A DNA stretch of 64,000 nt, taken from Candidatus Peribacteria bacterium (GTDB taxonomy: Bacteria; Patescibacteriota; Gracilibacteria; Peribacterales; Peribacteraceae). The position numbers were made by a program, and so were the translations under genes. Shown here piece by piece: positions 1,067-63,043 of the stretch (position 1 is the first letter of the stretch; the number at the start of each line of letters is the position of its first letter). The stretch covers positions 1 to 64,000 of the forward strand of contig JABICL010000034.1 of the NCBI GenBank assembly GCA_018652265.1, given 5' to 3'. The notes beneath the pieces were generated by a model, which was not told where the DNA came from, made no database searches, and was given only the letters and a program-made list of their open reading frames with translations.

Positions 1067-1255
1067 GGGTGTTGCGCTTCGGAATGGAATGTAAGCAGAC
1101 CCCATTTAAAAATATGAAAATGTGTCTTAATAATATTTTCGGTCTGTATGTGCAGATAATCTCTCGACTCGTTGTGCTTTCCTCGAGCTTTCGCCTATGG
1201 CAAAAGTCGAGAGGTAGCGCAACTCACTCGAGAAAAGCTTGCTACAATCCATTTG

Positions 1256-3381: not shown

Positions 3382-4038
3382 ATGGAATCTATGGATCGAT
3401 ATCCAGAGGCCCAAGAATTTATAACTGCAGATGCCGTTATAAATGATGTTGTTGATAACGAAGTTGCAAATGGAGGCATTGTATCTCCAGATTCAATTGC
3501 AAATGAAGTAGCAGAAAGATCCGAAGTACTCACAGAAGATCAAAAAATATTAACTCAGAAATATATAACCTGCATACAAGGATTCACACACGGCGCTGTG
3601 ATAAAAACATTGGAGGATGGAGTGGGTGGTATGTATGACGGATCTGTATTTATTGCAGAAGAAACTATAAGAATAGGAAGTAGTGTACAGTCCACTATTG
3701 AACAAACAGAAGAAACCATGGCGCATGAAGCTTTTCATAAAGATCATCTACATACTCAGGAGTACATAACTAGCCCGCTAGCAGACGAAGGTGCATTTGT
3801 AGTAATAGGAGGAGAAGAATTCTCCAGAGAAGTATTTATAGAGGGATTAACTGTTTTGAAAACAGGGGAAAGATATGTCTCTGCTGACTATAGAAACCGT
3901 ATGAATTTAGTTTTAAATTCAATATACAAATCAGACGTGAGCCTGGATGAAGTAGTGTATGCATCTAAATCCCACGATCTAACAAAAATCGATGACCGAT
4001 CCAGAAAAAATCAAAAACATTACAATATGTCATGCTGA
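3382..4038 (+). CDS. Hypothetical protein with HExxH (HEAFH) motif, putative metallopeptidase
   Basis: 218 aa ORF 2 nt after the folA stop; TMAHEAFHKDHLH. Confidence 0.6.
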   Translation: MESMDRYPEAQEFITADAVINDVVDNEVANGGIVSPDSIANEVAERSEVLTEDQKILTQKYITCIQGFTHGAVIKTLEDGVGGMYDGSVFIAEETIRIGSSVQSTIEQTEETMAHEAFHKDHLHTQEYITSPLADEGAFVVIGGEEFSREVFIEGLTVLKTGERYVSADYRNRMNLVLNSIYKSDVSLDEVVYASKSHDLTKIDDRSRKNQKHYNMSC

Positions 4039-4117
4039 GCCATACTGAGCGAGTAGAACTGGAGGCAGAACGAAGTGAAGCCTCAGTTCTAGGAGACGAA
4101 GTATGTGTCGAAGCATA
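4026..4117. repeat. Palindromic repeat, family A (TGTCATGCTGAGC...GTGTCGAAGCA)
   Basis: 92 bp imperfect palindrome, near-identical to 42336-42427; supplies the stop of the upstream ORF. Confidence 0.9.
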
Positions 4118-4993: not shown

Positions 4994-5201
4994 CAAGTGA
5001 TTAGTGGTTGGTAAGCAGTAGCGCTTCGACACGTACTTCATGATGGAGCGGCTTCCACCTACGCCAAGCCTGCCTGCTGGCAGGCAGGGCTTCGGCGGAC
5101 AGGCAGCATGACATAAATAAGAGCAAACATTATACCTACCCACTACCCACTACCCACTACCCACTACCCACTACCCACTACCCACTACCCACTACCCACT
5201 A
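4994..5201. repeat. Period-7 hairpin repeat with nested palindromic repeat
   Basis: Left arm CAAGTGATTAGTGGTTGG, right arm 9x ACCCACT (5138-5200); family A-like element nested at 5023-5114; the thyA stop lies in the repeat. Confidence 0.85.
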
Positions 5202-5993
5202 AACTGCTATTGGAGCTTTTATTGCCGGACACGGATCATAATCCAAAATCTCTATATCTCCATAGGTAAAATCAAATATAGATTTCACATCTGAATTCAG
5301 TTTAAGTTTTGGGATAGATCTTGTTTCACGAGATAATTGTTCGCGTGCTTGATCTATATGATTTGAGTACAGATGAACATCACCAAAAGTATGAACAAAA
5401 TCTCCAACTTCAAGCTCACATATCTGTGCAATCATATGAGTGAGTAATGCGTAAGATGCGATATTAAATGGCACACCCAAGAAAACATCTGCACTTCTCT
5501 GATAAAGCTGACAACTAAGTTTTCCATTGCACACATAGAACTGAAATAGGCAGTGACATGGAGGTAGGGCCATATTTTTTATCTCACCAACATTCCATGC
5601 GCATACTATATGTCTACGTGAATCAGGATTATTTTTTAGACTATCTATGAGACCTGTTATTTGATCATGCGCATGTCCATCTTTATCTGGCCAAGATCTC
5701 CACTGAGATCCGTACACAGGCCCCAAATCACCATTTTCATCTGCCCACTCATCCCATATAGAAACCCCATTGTCTTTCAAATATTTTATATTTGTCTCGC
5801 CATTCAAAAACCAAAGAAGCTCATGAAAGATAGATCTGGTATGTAATTTTTTGGTTGTAAGAAGGGGAAACCCTTCAGACAAATCAAATCTCATCTGTCT
5901 TCCAAAAAGACTTAGTGTTCCTGTTCCTGTTCTATCAGATTTCTCTTCGCCGTTTTCTAGAACATCTTTTAAAAGGTTTAAATACTGTTTCAT
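5199..5993 (-). CDS. thyA: Thymidylate synthase
   Basis: [65 protein letters not shown]. Confidence 0.98.
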
Positions 5994-15500: not shown

Positions 15501-15748
15501 GTAGAAAAGCTGGAGTAATGAGAATAAAAATGGAAGGAGGAAAAGTGGGAAGCCAAGAAGTAGTAGTTACTCTTCATCCAAGAGTGACAGCAAAACATAT
15601 AGTTCCACTGCTTGCGAAGAATGATAAATGGAAAGTTGTGGGATCCTCTTTGAGGATCAAAAAGGATGACCTCGGTGAAAGTTGGTTTGCTGCCCTAAAA
15701 AAAGACATGGAAGTACTTGTCGGCAAAAAACAAAAATTGGACAAGTGA
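12587..15748 (+). CDS. mfd: Transcription-repair coupling factor
   Basis: 1053 aa; GDFVVHMDHGIGRF, CGDVGFGKTEVALRAAFKA, LTLTATPIPRTLNLSL, QLYQLRGRVGR. Confidence 0.97.
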   Translation: MKPSLLLGEETHRELRELLLAKKKLVISGASNGTAKAMFVAHIFDMSPSKTIVVLPDEGRREEMERWLNFFEVATESIKSSKNEDGNSFSRDDLPSYLSFFKSDYAEVLLITESVWEEEMPLLKEMSERKITFSKGQEIDITNLFERLIEIGYSHGQDIYLKPGEYRKIGDVLDIFPIQAESPIKIQFNFEKIEEIKEVNTEDVSSTEIIEGDLDVYPAKWQETEKLYKQLEEEHMLILDDIESNDSEETNANKLMFSSFPESGENHAHVRYLSVLKFYTLADFLNDVRDKLSQKWKLLIVSKRAEELISILKEENISHTVDEETRPGTMTIVDASQEEVLPHSLQNPDMKLAMLTDREIFSLKKEAKQRSIQKLSLDFITSLQPGDFVVHMDHGIGRFDGIVQKTIDEVTREYLEISYAGNDKLFIPIDQADKLSKHVHEEGEEPKLSKLGSIDWKKTMAKVKEETKKIAKELLALYAKRAKAKGFSYGEDVKEQKEFERAFPYTETPGQLKAIEDIKTDMEDPHPMDRLICGDVGFGKTEVALRAAFKAVKSGKQVAIISPITILADQHYRTVIKRMGDFSVRVEMLSRFRSKAEQKKILEKLRKGDLDIVVGTHRLLQPDVKFLNLGLLIIDEEQRFGVKQKEAIKEMRANVDILTLTATPIPRTLNLSLHKFRDITTITTPPPGRLPIITEVRKYSDALLRQSILNEVNRKGQVYVLHNRVETIDAFADKLRKLIPEASFIVSHGQLRPEDLEKRVSEFKDGKYDVLVSSTIIENGIDLPRANTLIVNEAERFGLSQLYQLRGRVGRGKVQAYAYFLYHTQRLKDDAKKRLRAIVEASELGSGFQIAMRDLEIRGAGEILGGSQSGHMKTVGMSQFLKLLKQTVAEMQTGSKKEKEEIETEINLPIEAYIPNFYIPDEQEKISVYQKLAGSYSEEILKEFEEDLEEEFGTPPKQVGGLFRILRLKMVCRKAGVMRIKMEGGKVGSQEVVVTLHPRVTAKHIVPLLAKNDKWKVVGSSLRIKKDDLGESWFAALKKDMEVLVGKKQKLDK

Positions 15749-15826
15749 TTAGTGGGTAGTGAGTAGTGGTTAGATTTTCAAAAGCAGCACTACTAATCGC
15801 TAGCCACTAATTACTAACCACTACTC
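15741..15826. repeat. Period-7 hairpin repeat
   Basis: ACAAGTGATTAGTGGGTAGTGAGTAGTGGTTAG ... CTAATCGCTAGCCACTAATTACTAACCACTACT; the mfd stop TGA is inside it. Confidence 0.9.
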
Positions 15827-16032
15827 TATTTAACCTCTGTAAACACTCTATTTTCATTATTAGGTTTTCTTACAATAAGTAGTGTTATTCCCACAATTAT
15901 ACAAATTAAGCCTAGGGAACCATTAATAACAGGCCATTTTTCGTATTCAAAAGATAATAATATGTCGTATATCTGAGGAATCGCGAGAAGTAGTCCGCTT
16001 GCGATAAGTAATAGTCCTGTTAGTAAATTCAT
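15826..16032 (-). CDS. Small two-helix membrane protein
   Basis: 68 aa with two hydrophobic segments. Confidence 0.5.
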   Translation of the reverse strand: MNLLTGLLLIASGLLLAIPQIYDILLSFEYEKWPVINGSLGLICIIVGITLLIVRKPNNENRVFTEVK

Positions 16033-22444: not shown

Positions 22445-24109
22445 TTAAATTGCTATATCCTCCAAAAATATCTGCACCCTACTTTCTTCATTCCAATTAT
22501 CTATTCCAAGTTTGCAGACAACGTCACAACGACTTGGAATTTTAGATGCAAGATGCCCAAGGCCGAAGCCAATGACTTTTATTCTTCCTATGAAGCATTG
22601 CAAGTGATCATTTTCTTGTCCCACACATCTAATTCCAGAAATAGTTTGGTTTCTAAGTAAAAATTTGGGTTCTGGGTTTCCATTTCCAAAAGGTTCAAGT
22701 TTTTGTAAGTCTTTTACAAAATTTAGACTCAAGTCTTCTAAAGATATTTCTGCATTTATTTCCAATGATGGAACAAGATCATATTTCTCCAGTCTTTCGT
22801 CTGCATCATTTTTAATCGCATCCGTAAATTTAATCCAATTAGATTTTTCCACTGTGCATCCAGCGGCCTCGGCATGCCCTCCGAAGTTTACTAAATACTC
22901 AGAGCATCTTTCTAGAGCCTCTACTACGTTGTATTCAGGAATGCTACGAAGAGAGCAGATGATCATATTAGATTTCAGAGTACCTACAATTGCTGGTATA
23001 GAGTATTTCTGGGAAAGTCTTCCTGCAATAAGTCCCACGATTCCTTGGTGGAAAGATGGGGACTGTAGAGTAATTATTGAATGATTTGTATCGATCAATC
23101 CAACCTCTTGCATCGCATTTGCAACCATTTGTTGTCTCTGGGTGTTTAATAATTCCATTTGTGGAATGTAATCTCCACCTTCAAGTAGTGCATTTAAAGA
23201 TAATCTAGGATCAGCAATTCTTCCTGCAGCATTTATTCTTGGTGCGATTCTATATCCTATATGAGAGCTAACCACTTCTTCACTTTCTTTTTTTATAGAT
23301 TTAACCAAATCAAATACAGCGTCATCAGATCCATTTTGCATAGCTTCAAGTCCTAGCTGAACTATAGTTCTATTTTCTCCCGTAAGTAACATTACATCTC
23401 CCACTGTTCCTATCGCAGCAAGAGATACATCTATATCTCTTTCTTCCCAATCATTATTCTCCAGTGCTCTTATGAGAGTAAATACAACTCCAGATCCACA
23501 AAGATTTTCATTTGAGTGTTTTGTTTTTGCGAATGGGTGAACGATGATGGGGAAGTGGCTTGCTGTGCACCCGAGTTCGCCACAGCGAACGAGTGGGGAA
23601 TGGCCTGCCGTGCACCCGAACGAAGTGAGTGGTGCATGGTGGTCTGTCACAATCGTATCTATTCCCATCTCCTTTGCCCTCTTTATTTCTTCTACTGCAT
23701 TTATTCCATTATCTACTGTGATTATTAGCGAAGCACCTTTCGAATATAAATCATCTATGAAGTCAGGATGAATTCCATATCCGTGTTCTATGCGATGGGG
23801 GAGTATAACTACAGGCTCAAGCCCATGGCGCCTGAAGAATCTTATAAGCTGCACCGCTCCTGTAATTCCATCTGCATCATAATCTCCGATTATTCCTACA
23901 GTTTCTCTAGTTGAGATTGCATGGTTTATTCTCTCGCATGCTTTCTCTATATCTCCCAGAGTTTTTGGATCTACTAAATCATTCCAGGATCCAAATTTCT
24001 CTGTGTCGATTCCTCTCTCTTCTGAAATTCTTTGAATACAGTCTATTTCTCCTATTCTCTCCGGAAGGATCCAATTCTTTCCTATGAGGGAGAGGGGCTT
24101 TGTCTGCAT
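22445..24109 (-). CDS. recJ: Single-stranded-DNA-specific exonuclease RecJ
   Basis: GDYDADGITGAVQLIRFF, VTDHHAP, LVNFGGHAEAAGCTVE, LEPFGNGNPEPKF; contains a repeat-encoded insertion near 23548-23635. Confidence 0.93.
   Translation of the reverse strand: MQTKPLSLIGKNWILPERIGEIDCIQRISEERGIDTEKFGSWNDLVDPKTLGDIEKACERINHAISTRETVGIIGDYDADGITGAVQLIRFFRRHGLEPVVILPHRIEHGYGIHPDFIDDLYSKGASLIITVDNGINAVEEIKRAKEMGIDTIVTDHHAPLTSFGCTAGHSPLVRCGELGCTASHFPIIVHPFAKTKHSNENLCGSGVVFTLIRALENNDWEERDIDVSLAAIGTVGDVMLLTGENRTIVQLGLEAMQNGSDDAVFDLVKSIKKESEEVVSSHIGYRIAPRINAAGRIADPRLSLNALLEGGDYIPQMELLNTQRQQMVANAMQEVGLIDTNHSIITLQSPSFHQGIVGLIAGRLSQKYSIPAIVGTLKSNMIICSLRSIPEYNVVEALERCSEYLVNFGGHAEAAGCTVEKSNWIKFTDAIKNDADERLEKYDLVPSLEINAEISLEDLSLNFVKDLQKLEPFGNGNPEPKFLLRNQTISGIRCVGQENDHLQCFIGRIKVIGFGLGHLASKIPSRCDVVCKLGIDNWNEESRVQIFLEDIAI
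23548..23635. repeat. Repeat/palindrome inserted in the recJ coding region
   Basis: Two near copies TGGGGAAGTGGCTTGCTGTGCACCCGAG and TGGGGAATGGCCTGCCGTGCACCCGAA flanking palindromic GTTCGCCACAGCGAAC. Confidence 0.8.
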
Positions 24110-42335: not shown

Positions 42336-42427
42336 TATGTCATGCTGAGCCGTACTGAGCGAGTAGAACTGGAGGCAGAACGAAGTGAAGCCTCAGTTCT
42401 AGGAGACGAAGTACGTGTCGAAGCATA
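42336..42427. repeat. Palindromic repeat, family A
   Basis: 90/92 identical to 4026-4117. Confidence 0.95.
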
Positions 42428-50504: not shown

Positions 50505-50584
50505 AATGAATAATTAAAAATGAATAATGAATAATTATGGACTATTTCCTTTATTGTACATTTTTCATTGTACATTTTTCATTT
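50505..50584. repeat. AT-rich period-7 hairpin element
   Basis: AATGAAT AATTAAA AATGAAT AATGAAT AATTATGG...ATTGTAC ATTTTTC ATTGTAC ATTTTTC. Confidence 0.8.
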
Positions 50585-51780
50585 GTCGTCTTAATAACAT
50601 TTATATATTGATTTACCATCCTCTCAACAGAAAATCTTTCTCTAGCACTTTTTTCTCCATTTCTAGACAGTTTCTCCAAAACTTCTTCTTTCTGAATTTC
50701 TGTAATTGCAGCTTTAATTTTATTACTACTTCCTGCAGGAACAATAATTGAATCCTCCGAGGAGATATGCCTAGAGATTCCACATGCATCTGTACATATA
50801 GTAGGAATTCCTCGCATCATTGCTTCGGCAATCACTAGTCCAAAAGGATCATTTTCTCTGCTTGGCAAAACCAGACAATCTATCCGATTATAAAATTCTT
50901 CTATATTGGGAATTGATTCCACAAGCTCAATTTTTTGCTGCCCACTTGTTTGTTTTTGTATATTGCAGCGAGAACAGGCTTTTATAAGCTTATTTCTCTC
51001 AGGTCCATTTCCAACTATCTCTAGCTCCACATTCGAAAGATCTTTTATGGCTTCTATAAGCAGATCTACTCCTTTGTCGTAAGTTAAGCGAGAAATACAG
51101 CCTATGCGGAAATTTCTAGCTTTCCTAGGGTGAACATTGTTGCTCTCCTCGACCGAGTCCGCCGAGGCGGACGAGTGGAGAGGCGCCTCTCGATTCAGCT
51201 CCTTGCTAGGAGCTTCACTCGAGGAAAGCCTTGTTTCCACTCCATTAGGAATAGAAATCACATCCTCCTCTCTCCACCCCATATCCAAATAAATATCTCT
51301 GCTCAGGTCAGATACCGTAACTGTAGTTGCTAGCCTGCTTAGTTTGCGAAGACGCGGAAGCCATGGATTCCACTTAAGCCATCTTCCTACTTTATCATGT
51401 TCGACCCAGATTACTTTTATGTTGTTTTGAATGCACCACTCTGTGAGTAGAAGTTTTTCGCTTAGGCTCAACATGAAAACCGTGCTCAGTGTTCCGCGTT
51501 CCGCGTTCAGTGCTTCTATAAGCTTTTTCTTCATACCTTTCTTCCGCCATAAGAAACTAATTGCATTCCACTTAGTAACTGGCGGGGGATCAATATTCAA
51601 TTCTTTCATGCGGTCCGCGGTCCGCGGTCCGCGGACCGCTCGTAATAGTGTTTTACAATCTCCCAAAAACTCAACTTCATAACCTCTCTCTCCCAGTCCT
51701 TTCATTAAACTCAGCGTCTGCACCTCCGCCCCGCCGAAACGAGATTCAAGTGGAAATCTGGTAAATAGGACTTTCTTCAC
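50551..51780 (-). CDS. Family 4-type glycosyltransferase containing several repeat-derived segments
   Basis: MKKVLFTRFPLESRFGGAEVQTLSLMKGLGERG; IPNGVE; IGCISRLTYDKGVDLLIEAI; LPSRENDPFGLVIAEAMMRGIPTI. Confidence 0.9.
   Translation of the reverse strand: MKKVLFTRFPLESRFGGAEVQTLSLMKGLGERGYEVEFLGDCKTLLRAVRGPRTADRMKELNIDPPPVTKWNAISFLWRKKGMKKKLIEALNAERGTLSTVFMLSLSEKLLLTEWCIQNNIKVIWVEHDKVGRWLKWNPWLPRLRKLSRLATTVTVSDLSRDIYLDMGWREEDVISIPNGVETRLSSSEAPSKELNREAPLHSSASADSVEESNNVHPRKARNFRIGCISRLTYDKGVDLLIEAIKDLSNVELEIVGNGPERNKLIKACSRCNIQKQTSGQQKIELVESIPNIEEFYNRIDCLVLPSRENDPFGLVIAEAMMRGIPTICTDACGISRHISSEDSIIVPAGSSNKIKAAITEIQKEEVLEKLSRNGEKSARERFSVERMVNQYINVIKTTNEKCTMKNVQ
51118..51232. repeat. Palindromic element inside glycosyltransferase CDS, family B
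   Basis: AGCTTTCCTAGGG...GTCCGCCGAGGCGGAC...GGAGAGGCGCCTCTCG...CGAGGAAAGCCT; homologous to 62396-62525. Confidence 0.9.
51484..51513. repeat. Period-7 array inside glycosyltransferase CDS
   Basis: GCTCAGT GTTCCGC GTTCCGC GTTCAGT. Confidence 0.8.
51611..51640. repeat. Period-7 array inside glycosyltransferase CDS
   Basis: 3x CGGTCCG plus CGGACCG. Confidence 0.85.
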
Positions 51781-57650: not shown

Positions 57651-60536
57651 ATGATTAAAAAAATTCAAAACTATCTGTCACATGTATTTTTTCTGGCTCT
57701 GGTCGTATGGGGCATTTATGCAACGTTAGTGTTTTTGGGTATAGATGCACACATAGTTGTCCTTCTAGAAGATGAAGCATGGAAATCTATAGCTAAGGAT
57801 ATTCCACAAAAACAGGGGGAATTTCCTCCGGCTGCGTTTTTGAGAGGGTTAAATGCTCTAGTGCCTATGGTTCAGCATTTTATATCTAGAGCTAGACCAT
57901 TTCTTGCTTACGGAGTGGTTAGTGCTTTAATTTATTTGTTATATGTGTGTTATACAGTTCTTGTAAAGGGAAGGCTTTTTATAGATAAAAAGGTAAATGC
58001 TCTACATTTAATTATTTTATTCTTTGGAAGTACATGGCTTGTATTTACTACTCTTTTTTATGTTGATGTTCCAAATTTACTTCCCAGTCTTATACTTGAG
58101 CCTTCAAGAGAGTCTTTAAATGATTCAGTTTCCGAAGAGGCATTTGTTGTATTAAAAGAAAATTTCAAGAGATTGGAAGAGTCTGGATGTATTATTCAAG
58201 ATAAAGAGGGCAGAAAAACTGGAGCTGGAGCAAATGCATACTGGTATCAGGGCATTTGTGTTCAGAAAGCATTCTTTACCAGAGTTATGTCTCAGGCTTT
58301 TATGCTTATGTTTTTGATATTGAATTTCCTTGTTATAGGTAAATTCTTGCTTAAGCTTTTTAAGTTCAAGACATCAAAATTATTAGAATTTGCTATGAGT
58401 TTAGGTTTGGGTGCAGCAGGAGTTACTATGATAATTTGGATATTGGCACTTATTAAGATTTTAAATTCTGCTACTGCATGGGTAGTTCTTATTGCTATTC
58501 CAATAATTGGATATCCGTATGTTTCTTATTGGATAAAATCAATTTTGCATTCCAACTGGAAATACAAAACATCATTCTTATCTGCAAAAAATATTATTAT
58601 CTGGCTTCTTATTACATATCTAGCATTTAACTTCTTAACAGTTGTAAGGCCATTTCCTATTGGATGGGATGATCTTGGTAGATATATAAATGGGCCAAGA
58701 CAAGTAAGTGTATTTGGCCATATTATTCCTGGAATGCTTGCTGCACAGTGGGAATATCTAACGTCTTTGGGGTTTGTATTGTTTGGTTATTATTCAGCTT
58801 TTGGGGCAACACTTGCTCAGCAAATTAATTGGATGGCAGGACTTTTTGCAACATTTGCTGTGTTTATTTGTGCAAGAAGTGTTTTGGGTGATGGCAAAGG
58901 AATATTTGCTGCCCTCTTCTATTACACATTACCAATGGCTGGTCATTTCTCGTTTGCAGATATGAAAACTGAGAATGCACTACTCTTTTATGGGGCGCTT
59001 GGTATTACCGCAGTTGTTATTTGGATAAAAAATAGAGAAAAAGAAGAGCAAGATGGAAATGGAATGAAGTGGTTGTTTGTTGCGGGAATTTTATTTGCTG
59101 CAGGAGTTGCTACCAAGCCTACGATTGTTCTTATGTTTCTTATGGCAGGAACCATGATTACATTCGATGTATTGGGAGTTTCTAGTGGTATAGGATCAAT
59201 ATTTCTTGGCACTCTTATACTTACAAAATCTAGGGCAATCAGCTTATCCAAGATAGCGGAAAAATTGGGGATACTAGACGTTTCATTGTTTAGTACTTTT
59301 GTGACTATCTCTCTCCTTGTGATTGGTGTTGCACTATTTGTAATGCCACTTGTTTATTCAAGGAAAAAATCAAATACAAAAGCAAAACTTGCGGAACACA
59401 AGTTCTATTGGAAGAGCGTTATGGTTATTGTAGTTGGTTTTATGATTTTCTCGGGGCCATGGATGGTTAGAAATATGGGGGCTAATAAAATGATAAATGT
59501 GTCTGCATTACTTGGTGCGCCAAATACGATTACTCCTATGATTGTATATAGCGAAGAAATGCTTCCTGATAATGCTCCTGAAGGATCGAGATTTTTGCCT
59601 CCTGAATTGGCAGTAGATCCTGATCATGAAAGATGTATAGGTACTTCTGAGCAAGAAGAGTTAGATAGATATTGGGGATATGGTGCTGGATTTAGTCATT
59701 TCCTTAAATTGCCATGGAGAGTGATTATGAATGTAGATTCTCAGGGGTACTACCTCACAACTTCTCCATTATTACTTCTTGTTCCATTATTACTTCTGGC
59801 GCCAATCTTTTGGAGGAAGAGAATTCTTAGATTGATATTCTGGGGGACACTTGCATATGTTTTCCAATGGATTCTCGCAGCCAGTGGTATCCCTTGGTAT
59901 GGAATAGGAATGTTCCTTGGCCTTGCCATATGTGTTGAAGCTGTTTTATTTGGTTCAAAAGATAAGGCTTCCAGGATAGTAGGAGGGACTTTGTGTGTTG
60001 TTGCAATACTTATGGTCCTATCTCTTAGGCTTTGGCAATTTTCCATGCAAATGAATTTGCATGAGTATTCATGGGGAAAAGCTTCCTTTGAAGTGCTTAG
60101 AGAGATGACTATTCCTGATTACGATAATATTACAGAAAATGTTGTTGAGCTTTCCAAGAATAAGGAAACACCTTATCTATATAGGATGGGAACTTTTATA
60201 AGTTATTTCATTCCACGCAATAGGGAAATTATTACGCTAAATGATAATCAGCTTGTCTTTTTTAATTGTATAAACCAAGAGGGAGATCATCTTCTTACTT
60301 TAAAGAGACTTAAGGCATTAGGATTTCATAGTATAGTTTTTGATACGAATACTGCGACCATAGAAAAAGATCAAAACGGAACTCTTCATCAGAAGGTAAA
60401 TAATTTTATGGATTTTGCAAATGATGAAAGTACGGGAATTATATCTGTGGTGAATAATCCAGGAGGGGGGATTGCTTATATGATACTTCCGGAGAGCGTT
60501 GAGATTGATGAGGATGCTGTAGATGTAGAGGAGTGA
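57651..60536 (+). CDS. Large polytopic membrane protein, putative lipid-linked glycosyltransferase
   Basis: 961 aa with many TM segments; DDLGRYINGPRQ and charged loop; in a glycan cluster. Confidence 0.6.
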   Translation: MIKKIQNYLSHVFFLALVVWGIYATLVFLGIDAHIVVLLEDEAWKSIAKDIPQKQGEFPPAAFLRGLNALVPMVQHFISRARPFLAYGVVSALIYLLYVCYTVLVKGRLFIDKKVNALHLIILFFGSTWLVFTTLFYVDVPNLLPSLILEPSRESLNDSVSEEAFVVLKENFKRLEESGCIIQDKEGRKTGAGANAYWYQGICVQKAFFTRVMSQAFMLMFLILNFLVIGKFLLKLFKFKTSKLLEFAMSLGLGAAGVTMIIWILALIKILNSATAWVVLIAIPIIGYPYVSYWIKSILHSNWKYKTSFLSAKNIIIWLLITYLAFNFLTVVRPFPIGWDDLGRYINGPRQVSVFGHIIPGMLAAQWEYLTSLGFVLFGYYSAFGATLAQQINWMAGLFATFAVFICARSVLGDGKGIFAALFYYTLPMAGHFSFADMKTENALLFYGALGITAVVIWIKNREKEEQDGNGMKWLFVAGILFAAGVATKPTIVLMFLMAGTMITFDVLGVSSGIGSIFLGTLILTKSRAISLSKIAEKLGILDVSLFSTFVTISLLVIGVALFVMPLVYSRKKSNTKAKLAEHKFYWKSVMVIVVGFMIFSGPWMVRNMGANKMINVSALLGAPNTITPMIVYSEEMLPDNAPEGSRFLPPELAVDPDHERCIGTSEQEELDRYWGYGAGFSHFLKLPWRVIMNVDSQGYYLTTSPLLLLVPLLLLAPIFWRKRILRLIFWGTLAYVFQWILAASGIPWYGIGMFLGLAICVEAVLFGSKDKASRIVGGTLCVVAILMVLSLRLWQFSMQMNLHEYSWGKASFEVLREMTIPDYDNITENVVELSKNKETPYLYRMGTFISYFIPRNREIITLNDNQLVFFNCINQEGDHLLTLKRLKALGFHSIVFDTNTATIEKDQNGTLHQKVNNFMDFANDESTGIISVVNNPGGGIAYMILPESVEIDEDAVDVEE

Positions 60537-60628
60537 TTAGTAGGTAGTGGGTAGTGATTAGTAGCAAAACAATATGTGGTACGTTGTGCAGCGTGCTAGC
60601 CACTAACTACTAACCACTAACCACTTGT
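60531..60628. repeat. Period-7 hairpin repeat
   Basis: GAGTGATTAGTAGGTAGTGGGTAGTGATTAGTAGCAAAACAA...CTAGCCACTAACTACTAACCACTAACCACTTGT. Confidence 0.9.
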
Positions 60629-61372: not shown

Positions 61373-61750
61373 ATGGATTTTCAAATAACCCCATACATCG
61401 TAGTAGTGCCGCTCATAGCCTTTTTCTTTATAGTTTATGCATGGAACCACGTTATGCGTGGGACCAAGACTATATGGGAAGCAATACTTTGGTCGTTTTT
61501 CTGGGGGTGCATCGCAACTATAGTTCTTTTCCCAGAATGGATAGGCTTTCTAACATCATGGACTGGGATAAAAGATCAAGAGAATGCAATATTTGCTATA
61601 GCAATTGGAATAATCCTTTTTATCGTTTTCCAAATAATTATAAGAATGGAAAATATGCAGAAGCAAATTACAGATTTGGTGAGGCATGATGCTATTGAGG
61701 ATTCGGGACTAACAGAGTCAGATGCTGTAACAAATAGCACAAACAAGTGA
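61373..61750 (+). CDS. DUF2304-like small membrane protein
   Basis: 125 aa with three hydrophobic segments, directly after a GT2 gene. Confidence 0.65.
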   Translation: MDFQITPYIVVVPLIAFFFIVYAWNHVMRGTKTIWEAILWSFFWGCIATIVLFPEWIGFLTSWTGIKDQENAIFAIAIGIILFIVFQIIIRMENMQKQITDLVRHDAIEDSGLTESDAVTNSTNK

Positions 61751-61841
61751 GTAGTGAGTAGTGGGTAGTGATTAGTAGCAAAGCAATAGGTACGCGATAT
61801 GTAACCCACTGACCACTGACCACTAACCACTAACCACTCGT
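61745..61841. repeat. Period-7 hairpin repeat filling an intergenic gap
   Basis: ACAAGTGAGTAGTGAGTAGTGGGTAGTGATTAGTAGCAAAGCAA...CCACTGACCACTGACCACTAACCACTAACCACTCGT. Confidence 0.9.
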
Positions 61842-61843
61842 AC

Positions 61844-63043
61844 ATGAAAACCATTCTACTCATCTCCCCCTATTGGAAAGAGCCGCATCGTTGGATGGTA
61901 AGTTCTGTAAAACTTGCAGAGCTTTGGCAAAGAATGGGATATAAAGTAGTTGTTGTATGTATGGGGGCGAAAACAGAGAAAGAAGTAGTCTCGGAAACTC
62001 TCACTATTTATAGGGTGTGGGATTTCTTTTTGCCAGACCCTTTAAACTATGGAATATCTCCAGGATTTTTCTTTAAAGTTTTAAGGGTTTTAAAAAACGA
62101 AAAGCCAGACATCGTAATTGTAAATAAGATTCTTTTCTGGACTTCTTTGATTGTTCCTTGGCTTAGAATTCTTGGAAAAAAGCCAATCGTTACTACGGAT
62201 GCACTTGTAGGAGTTACCTGGCAGCCTAGAGGAATAATTCCAAAAGTCATTATGTCTATTGGAGGATGGACGGCTGGATGGAAAGTAATGCTTTTTGCCA
62301 AAAAATTAGTATTTTTTCATCCGCAGCCGGATAAGATTTTGAAAATGATGGGGGTTTATGGAAAATCAATTGTGATTCCTACGGGGATAGATAGTCGAGC
62401 TTTCCTTAACAAGCTCTCCTCGAGTGAGTCCGCCAGCGGGCGGACGAATCGAGAGGCGCCTCTCCACTCGTCCGCTAAAGCGGACTCGGTCGAGGAGAGT
62501 TACAATATTCATGCGAGGAAAGCTCAAACCGTGACTTATGTTGGACGATTAGAATCTGTAAAAGGTGTAGATGATTTTCTCGCAGCGACAGTGCCTCTAA
62601 AAAAAGATTATCCAGATCTAAATATTCAAGTTGTTGGATATTGTAAGCCAGGGAATACGATCGTAAGGCAATATGAAGGTAGCGTGAAATTCACAGGATT
62701 GCGTGATGATATTCCAGAGATTCTAAGTAGCTCAGATATATTCGTCTTACCAAGTTATAGTGAAGGCCTTAGTAATGCTCTCATGGAAGCTATGTCTTCT
62801 AGGTGTGCATGTATTGCTACCGGTGTAGGCGGTAATAAATATTTAATAGAAGACTCAGTATCTGGATTACTATTTAAGCCAGGGGATATCGAGGCTCTTA
62901 GATCTCATGTAAGAAGCCTGATAGACAATCCTTCAAGGATAGAGGGATTAGGAAATGCAGCCAGGGCCCGCATAGAGGATATGTTTGACTGGAGCGTAAT
63001 CGAGAGTAAATATGCTGAACTTTTTAACGAGCGGGCCAATTAA
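61844..63043 (+). CDS. Family 4-type glycosyltransferase with palindrome-encoded insertion
   Basis: VIPTGIDSRAF; VTYVGRLESVKGVDDFL; LPSYSEGLSNALMEAMSSRCACIATGVGGN. Confidence 0.92.
   Translation: MKTILLISPYWKEPHRWMVSSVKLAELWQRMGYKVVVVCMGAKTEKEVVSETLTIYRVWDFFLPDPLNYGISPGFFFKVLRVLKNEKPDIVIVNKILFWTSLIVPWLRILGKKPIVTTDALVGVTWQPRGIIPKVIMSIGGWTAGWKVMLFAKKLVFFHPQPDKILKMMGVYGKSIVIPTGIDSRAFLNKLSSSESASGRTNREAPLHSSAKADSVEESYNIHARKAQTVTYVGRLESVKGVDDFLAATVPLKKDYPDLNIQVVGYCKPGNTIVRQYEGSVKFTGLRDDIPEILSSSDIFVLPSYSEGLSNALMEAMSSRCACIATGVGGNKYLIEDSVSGLLFKPGDIEALRSHVRSLIDNPSRIEGLGNAARARIEDMFDWSVIESKYAELFNERAN
62396..62525. repeat. Palindromic element inside glycosyltransferase CDS, family B
   Basis: CGAGCTTTCCT...GTCCGCCAGCGGGCGGAC...CGAGAGGCGCCTCTCC...AGGAAAGCTC. 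Confidence 0.92.

Follow-up and report, generated by a model that had tools for sequence, protein, structure and literature searches.

An in-frame palindromic repeat family in protein-coding genes of a Candidatus Peribacteria bacterium

The window analysed here, a 64,000-nucleotide stretch of a Candidatus Peribacteria genome (assembly GCA_018652265.1, contig JABICL010000034.1, positions 1 to 64,000), contains two glycosyltransferase (GT) genes, GT1 and GT2, each interrupted in frame by a copy of the same palindromic DNA element (Table 1). In GT1 the insert (residues 190-219) lies in the segment that links the two Rossmann domains. The element belongs to a family with about 60 loci in this genome (1.07 Mb, 48 contigs), some between genes and some inside them.

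Table 1. Window features related to the palindromic element, with window positions. ORF, open reading frame.
Feature	Position	Strand	Remarks
GT1, GT4-type glycosyltransferase gene, 399 aa	61844..63043	+	Pfam Glyco_transf_4 at 23-118, Glyco_trans_1_4 at 228-362
88-bp inverted-dimer palindromic element in GT1	62413..62500	+	predicted in-frame translation (K)LSSSESASGRTNREAPLHSSAKADSVEES; four-helix fold
Left half-element of the GT1 copy, monomer in reverse orientation	62413..62456	-	GCTCTCCTCGAGTGAG-[TCCGCCAGCGGGCGGA]-CGAATCGAGAGG
Right half-element of the GT1 copy, monomer	62459..62500	+	CCTCTCCACTCG-[TCCGCTAAAGCGGA]-CTCGGTCGAGGAGAGT
Outer arm of the GT1 composite, AGCTTTCCT	62398..62406	+	octamer identical to the terminal arm of the family
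Outer arm of the GT1 composite, AGGAAAGCT	62516..62524	+	with preceding ACAATATTCATGCG, common only to the GT2 copy
GT2, second GT4-type glycosyltransferase gene	50551..51780	-	copy in the corresponding linker
88-bp copy in GT2	51142..51229	-	predicted translation RLSSSEAPSKELNREAPLHSSASADSVEES
80-bp nested-type copy, leader of folB gene	1159..1238	+	Pfam FolB starts at ORF residue 31, downstream of the copy
Different palindromic repeat in frame inside recJ (ORF 22445-24109)	23567..23635	-	weak match to the family model, E=0.17

The arms of the GT1 palindrome were read directly as CGAGCTTTCCT (62396-62406) and AGGAAAGCTC (62516-62525), with GAGAGGCGCCTCTC at the centre. A single open frame crosses the palindrome, encodes the peptide KLSSSESASGRTNREAPLHSSAKADSVEES and remains open through the whole ORF. 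The structure is a composite in which the 88-bp dimer lies inside a further GCTTTCCT...AGGAAAGC pair. A first-pass annotation of the window had proposed a translated palindrome of about 130 bp in GT1 and a homologous one in GT2. The in-frame palindrome was confirmed in GT1, and its counterpart was found in the same linker of GT2; positions 51118-51229 and 62413-62524 are 80% complementary over 112 nt. The arms are where the annotation placed them, but the unit proper is the 88-bp dimer and the outermost arms belong to the composite. Likewise, the quoted peptide is in frame but runs eight residues (YNIHARKA) past that unit. A 16-nt core word occurs three times in the window, against 0.02 expected, the predicted fold of the element is -63 kcal/mol, and dozens of copies are present in its own genome. 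The GT1 palindrome is therefore beyond chance.

The monomers of the GT1 half-elements were deduced by comparing dimers, nested copies and solitary copies. The basic unit of the family is a monomer of about 42 nt, similar to repetitive extragenic palindromic (REP) sequences, with the organization CCTCTCNACTCG-(variable hairpin)-CTCNNTCGAGGAAAGC. Long copies of 84-116 bp are inverted pairs of monomers separated by a variable spacer (H'-spacer-H), and in a nested form of about 80 bp one monomer lies within the hairpin of the other. Solitary monomers are rare and were found in gatA and, between genes, at C38:44935. A covariance model search returned roughly 35 long copies and 21 matches of 63-64 bp; reading of the flanks showed that the 63-bp matches belong to the 80-bp unit. 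The only Rfam matches were sub-threshold microRNA entries, which were rejected as chance hairpin matches.

Alignment of 27 full copies gave a four-helix model with an outer stem, two side arms and a central arm. In this alignment 91.6% of the pair cells were paired, compared with 80.1% in shuffles and 40-50% in slid-partner controls, and 99 two-sided changes were counted versus 28. The side arms differ completely in sequence from copy to copy yet remain complementary. These compensatory changes strongly support the four-helix fold.

When 58 loci were read in context, 26 copies of the family were found inside genes, along with the recJ repeat, which was assigned to another family. These insertions, at least 26 in number and each within a long ORF that has coding sequence on both sides, are spread over 24 mostly housekeeping genes, a larger extent than the first-pass annotation had indicated. 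The hosts, named from their Pfam domains and from reading of the sequences, are three GT4 glycosyltransferases, a dicarboxylate symporter, LeuRS (leuS), an IleRS-type synthetase, MurD- and MurE-like ligases, FemAB (two inserts), transketolase, dihydroorotase (two inserts), a POR-type oxidoreductase, a PyrK-like protein, TsaE, RsmA, a metallophosphoesterase, a TrxB-like protein, ComEC, a carbamoyltransferase, two CarA, ProC, GatA and a glucan phosphorylase. Pfam domains span or flank most of the inserts. The remaining loci lie between ORFs, three of them in the leaders of dnaK, a murF-like gene and a nucleotidyltransferase gene. In-gene copies were depleted relative to expectation (27 of 58, p about 3e-14, with a coding density of 0.88 assumed), as expected under purifying selection. 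Two diverged carA genes (C14:8440-9621 and C20:11662-12879, approximate positions; L075 and L076) have the same insert at the same site; either the gene was duplicated once it had received the insert, or the assembly contains strain variants.

In every in-gene copy a frame stays open and runs on into the host gene. Among the 17 in-gene copies of the dimer class, with the gatA monomer counted in, 4 are read in one sense frame and 13 in the three antisense frames. Frame +0, in which TGA is frequent, is open in 8 of 33 dimers and is never used in genes. In these 17 copies the peptide in the frame read is never net positive and has a mean charge of -1.9, whereas the mean charge is +3.1 for the remaining open frames of these copies (Mann-Whitney p=2e-7) and +2.5 for copies between genes, again in their open frames (p=1e-6). 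A trend in the same direction was seen for the nested class (p=1e-3). The charge bias argues for translation and for filtering at the protein level; the test is independent of the selection of copies by long ORFs, and we regard it as the best evidence for both. Disorder-promoting residues make up 59-73% of the element open frames versus 48% of the host proteins. From the sequences we infer that the inserts are translated in the cell, and they would form flexible or disordered loops.

It was also considered whether the mature protein lacks the extra residues, either because the hairpin is cut out of the mRNA or because ribosomes bypass it in the manner of mitochondrial byps. A very stable fold (-40 to -63 kcal/mol in the copies folded), kept equally in genes and between them (91.2% and 92.0% of pairs, respectively), would suit such a process. 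However, neither frame nor charge need matter to a segment that is skipped, so the open frame running on into the host gene in every copy, acidic or neutral where the other open frames are basic, counts against skipping, and we regard this explanation as very improbable.

Wherever a comparison was made, the insert was missing from relatives of the same taxonomic family or from distant proteins of solved structure. Orthologs of GT1 were identified in 51 of 57 same-family genomes, and the alignments break at the insert; the linker has 17-22 residues in 19 of 29 orthologs compared with about 45 here. LeuRS has exactly 30 extra residues between positions 797 and 798 of the E. coli enzyme, with none lost, and is uninterrupted at that junction in most of 11 sampled same-family relatives. 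The gain is 27 residues (81 nt) in CarA and 14 residues, one monomer, in GatA, and the RsmA alignment breaks at residue 87, at the insert. Transketolase and dihydroorotase gave no PDB matches at strict cut-offs. The family itself was found in none of the 23 other same-family genera searched, and the insertions are therefore young. A scan of 84,980 species genomes for the core pattern returned only five scattered matches, the element was absent from the two Spirochaetales loci inspected among them, and phage and viral collections yielded no match.

These comparisons bear on the proposal that the palindromes encode loops native to the host proteins and functional there, and that the symmetry of the DNA is incidental. 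Although the shared peptide at the same linker in two glycosyltransferases would fit such loops, the same DNA recurs in 24 genes that are unrelated to one another, where it lies in both orientations and is read in no fewer than four frames; it also occurs between genes, and the homologs checked do not have the insert. The proposal is considered already refuted. For the glycosyltransferases, the first-pass annotation had foreseen two scenarios that would undercut an invading repeat, and both fail. Homologs carrying the peptide without a palindrome were not encountered, since those checked lack the insert altogether. Inheritance of the GT1 and GT2 copies from a recent duplication is contradicted by the 36% identity of the two proteins over the aligned part and by the GT1 orthologs without the insert in other genera.

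The copies in GT1 and GT2 are nevertheless not independent insertions because they have in common a 23-bp 3' flank, ending in AGGAAAGCT, that was present at no other fetched place. Most likely, a single event was followed by copying of the whole composite from one gene into the other, through either gene conversion or duplicative transposition. A third glycosyltransferase (C30:81967), 31% identical to GT1, has a copy in the opposite orientation in the same linker; this copy is independent of the GT1/GT2 event. GT2 also holds, at 51612-51641, a CGGTCCGCGGTCCGCGG-type repeat with the predicted translation RAVRGPRTADR. The related peptides RGPRTAD and EPRTADRGP were seen in CarA and MurD of the same genome, so a further translated repeat family is probably present.

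The sites themselves were compared across relatives for two genes, GT1 and LeuRS. In about ten relatives the glycosyltransferase linker has other palindromic or heptad-repeat DNA, in frame with the gene. The two such sequences tested are dispersed repeats of their own genomes, with 13 places in one (G072) and about 50 matches in the other (G068). The LeuRS site has other inserts in three relatives, one of them a clear palindrome. The repeats of the relatives thus occupy the same linker and the same junction, but their sequences are unrelated and genus-specific. Sites that tolerate insertion thus seem to be invaded time and again by the palindrome that happens to be resident in a genus. In a broader form, which we favour with some reserve, each genus has its own palindrome, unrelated repeats repeatedly and independently invade the same permissive sites of essential orthologs, and translated repeats filtered by charge are an ongoing main source of new loops.

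A separate observation was made in LeuRS. In seven same-family relatives, which represent six or more genera (L144-L150, in G002, G010, G021, G047, G052, G056 and G062), the LeuRS ORFs are 974-1071 aa long and include an in-frame Y1_Tnp domain (IS200/RAYT-like, PF01797). The domain is located inside the LeuRS editing domain, between QRNWIGRKEGI and ITVFTTRPDTNF, and keeps the HxH motif (AMPDHVHLLVSF) and the YIxxNP motif; Pfam detected both LeuRS and Y1 domains in all four ORFs tested. A literature search gave no report of a Y1 domain inside LeuRS. This may be a domesticated transposase.

Taken together, we consider it likely that the element is a REP-like family of mobile palindromes, restricted to the genus in everything searched, and that its in-gene copies are translated and kept where the frame and the peptide are tolerated. 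The monomer would spread mainly as inverted pairs, either dimers or the nested form, and would enter both intergenic DNA and genes. Copies in genes would persist only if the frame is kept and a peptide of 14-34 residues is tolerated, usually in interdomain linkers or surface loops, where the segment would be hydrophilic and near-neutral to acidic. The insert in GT1 would be one such copy, translated rather than removed. The preferred mobiliser is a Y1 (IS200/RAYT-like) transposase that would have acted in trans and since been lost from this genome; Y1 proteins are encoded in 38 of 57 same-family genomes.

Several observations weigh against this interpretation. Neither a Y1 transposase (PF01797) nor a reverse transcriptase was found in this assembly, and no consistent fixed-length target-site duplication was seen among the copies; mobility is therefore not shown directly. 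A reverse transcriptase was accordingly rejected as mobiliser, and a target-site duplication ACAA, possible at GT1, was rejected because no rule held across copies. Preservation of the frame is partly definitional, because in-gene status was defined by long ORFs; the charge test is free of this. The two carA copies are not independent events, as is also the case for GT1 and GT2. Finally, empty sites could be judged only against homologs from other genera, not to the exact base.

The lack of a detected dedicated transposase and of a constant target-site duplication would be accounted for if the copies arose by polymerase template switching or slippage together with gene conversion, in which case the covariation would reflect correction of quasi-palindromes rather than structural selection. 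Exchange of hairpin arms between copies as whole units is compatible with this, and the flank common to GT1 and GT2 suggests conversion. However, some 60 dispersed copies with defined ends at unrelated sites are hard to produce without insertion of a mobile unit, and many genomes of the family encode Y1 transposases. Template switching is thus a serious alternative, though a clearly less probable one than a mobile family.

Palindromic repeats in protein genes of Rickettsia are known as Rickettsia palindromic elements (RPEs; Ogata 2000, as cited in PMC10969869). The present element resembles RPEs, which comprise several families, in being a palindrome, in the RPE case of about 100-150 bp, that is in frame in unrelated genes (here all 26 insertions), predicted to be translated and also intergenic. 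The dimers (84-116 bp) and nested copies (about 80 bp) are slightly shorter than classical RPE-1. The host and the sequence are unrelated to RPEs, the build of monomers, dimers and nested copies is modular, and at least four frames and both orientations are used. None of the five pattern-scan matches was from Rickettsia, a result of a pattern scan and not of direct alignment to RPEs. The analogy with RPEs drawn in the first-pass annotation, of a protein-invading palindrome that has a distinct sequence and an unrelated host, was thus upheld. Its suggestion of an undescribed class was not, because intragenic in-frame REPs have been reported for many bacteria of several phyla (PMC3733652), and RPE-4 and RPE-6 have been classed as CGTC REPs, without a transposase (Di Nocera 2013, PMC3733652).

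The element is similar to CGTC REPs in its short hairpin units, the predominance of inverted dimers with spacers, the lack of a dedicated transposase and the intragenic location of some copies, which code for 20-30 residues. However, intact dimers end outward in GCTT, GCTC, ACTT or ACTC rather than in CGTC, TGTC or CCTC; the inner end CCTC can be read as a variant CGTC-REP tag, which would make TT dimers. The CGTC REP shape is an 8-9 bp stem, a 4-5 nt loop and a CCA tail, whereas here the stem of the monomer is in two parts, and there is an internal loop as well as a variable arm of 12-20 nt. With REPINs and GTAG REPs it shares inverted pairs of REP-like units and genome-wide dispersal, but the GTAG tag is absent and no cognate RAYT/Y1 gene was found in the genome. 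The element was placed in neither the CGTC nor the GTAG superfamily because it is without their tags and stem-loop dimensions. It also differs from miniature inverted-repeat transposable elements, which have a target-site duplication of fixed length. Two weak covariance-model matches in another family of the class (L064 and L067) are dimers of a CGTC- or TGTC-like type and so hint at a remote relationship with CGTC REPs. The element works like RPEs and intragenic REPs and is a new family with its own sequence and an unusual modular build. The open-access literature contained no report of such elements in Parcubacteria or the candidate phyla radiation.

Elsewhere in the window, the folB-leader copy is outside the conserved coding region, and the recJ insert (HHAPLTSFGCTAGHSPLVRCGELGCTASHFPIIVHP) has GGGTGCA... 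palindromic parts. A 92-bp intergenic palindrome, TATGTCATGCTGAGCC...GTGTCGAAGCATA, is present at 4026-4117 and 42336-42427 in copies that are 98% identical and represents another dispersed family. Intergenic heptad arrays (CCCACTA or AACCACT type) were noted at 2768-2850, 5135-5210, 15744-15832, 60532-60628 and 61746-61841. They are able to fold back on each other, and similar heptads are in frame inside the GT1 orthologs of relatives. Genomes are small across the class, and ribosomal protein uL30 was absent from all 20 genomes searched, whereas 13 of 14 controls had it; together these features suggest Patescibacteria (CPR).

Palindromes within coding sequence were first described from Rickettsia, in 2000, and reports of intragenic REPs in other bacteria followed. 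For the questions of whether such elements are really translated and what decides the survival of an insertion, a single genome here offers 26 mostly independent insertions with an internal control, since the frame in use can be set against the remaining open frames of that DNA. The charge contrast is a quantitative sign of selection at the protein level and makes the question of translation testable. Moreover, the presence of unrelated palindromes at shared sites across genera suggests a general route to protein linkers in small-genome bacteria.
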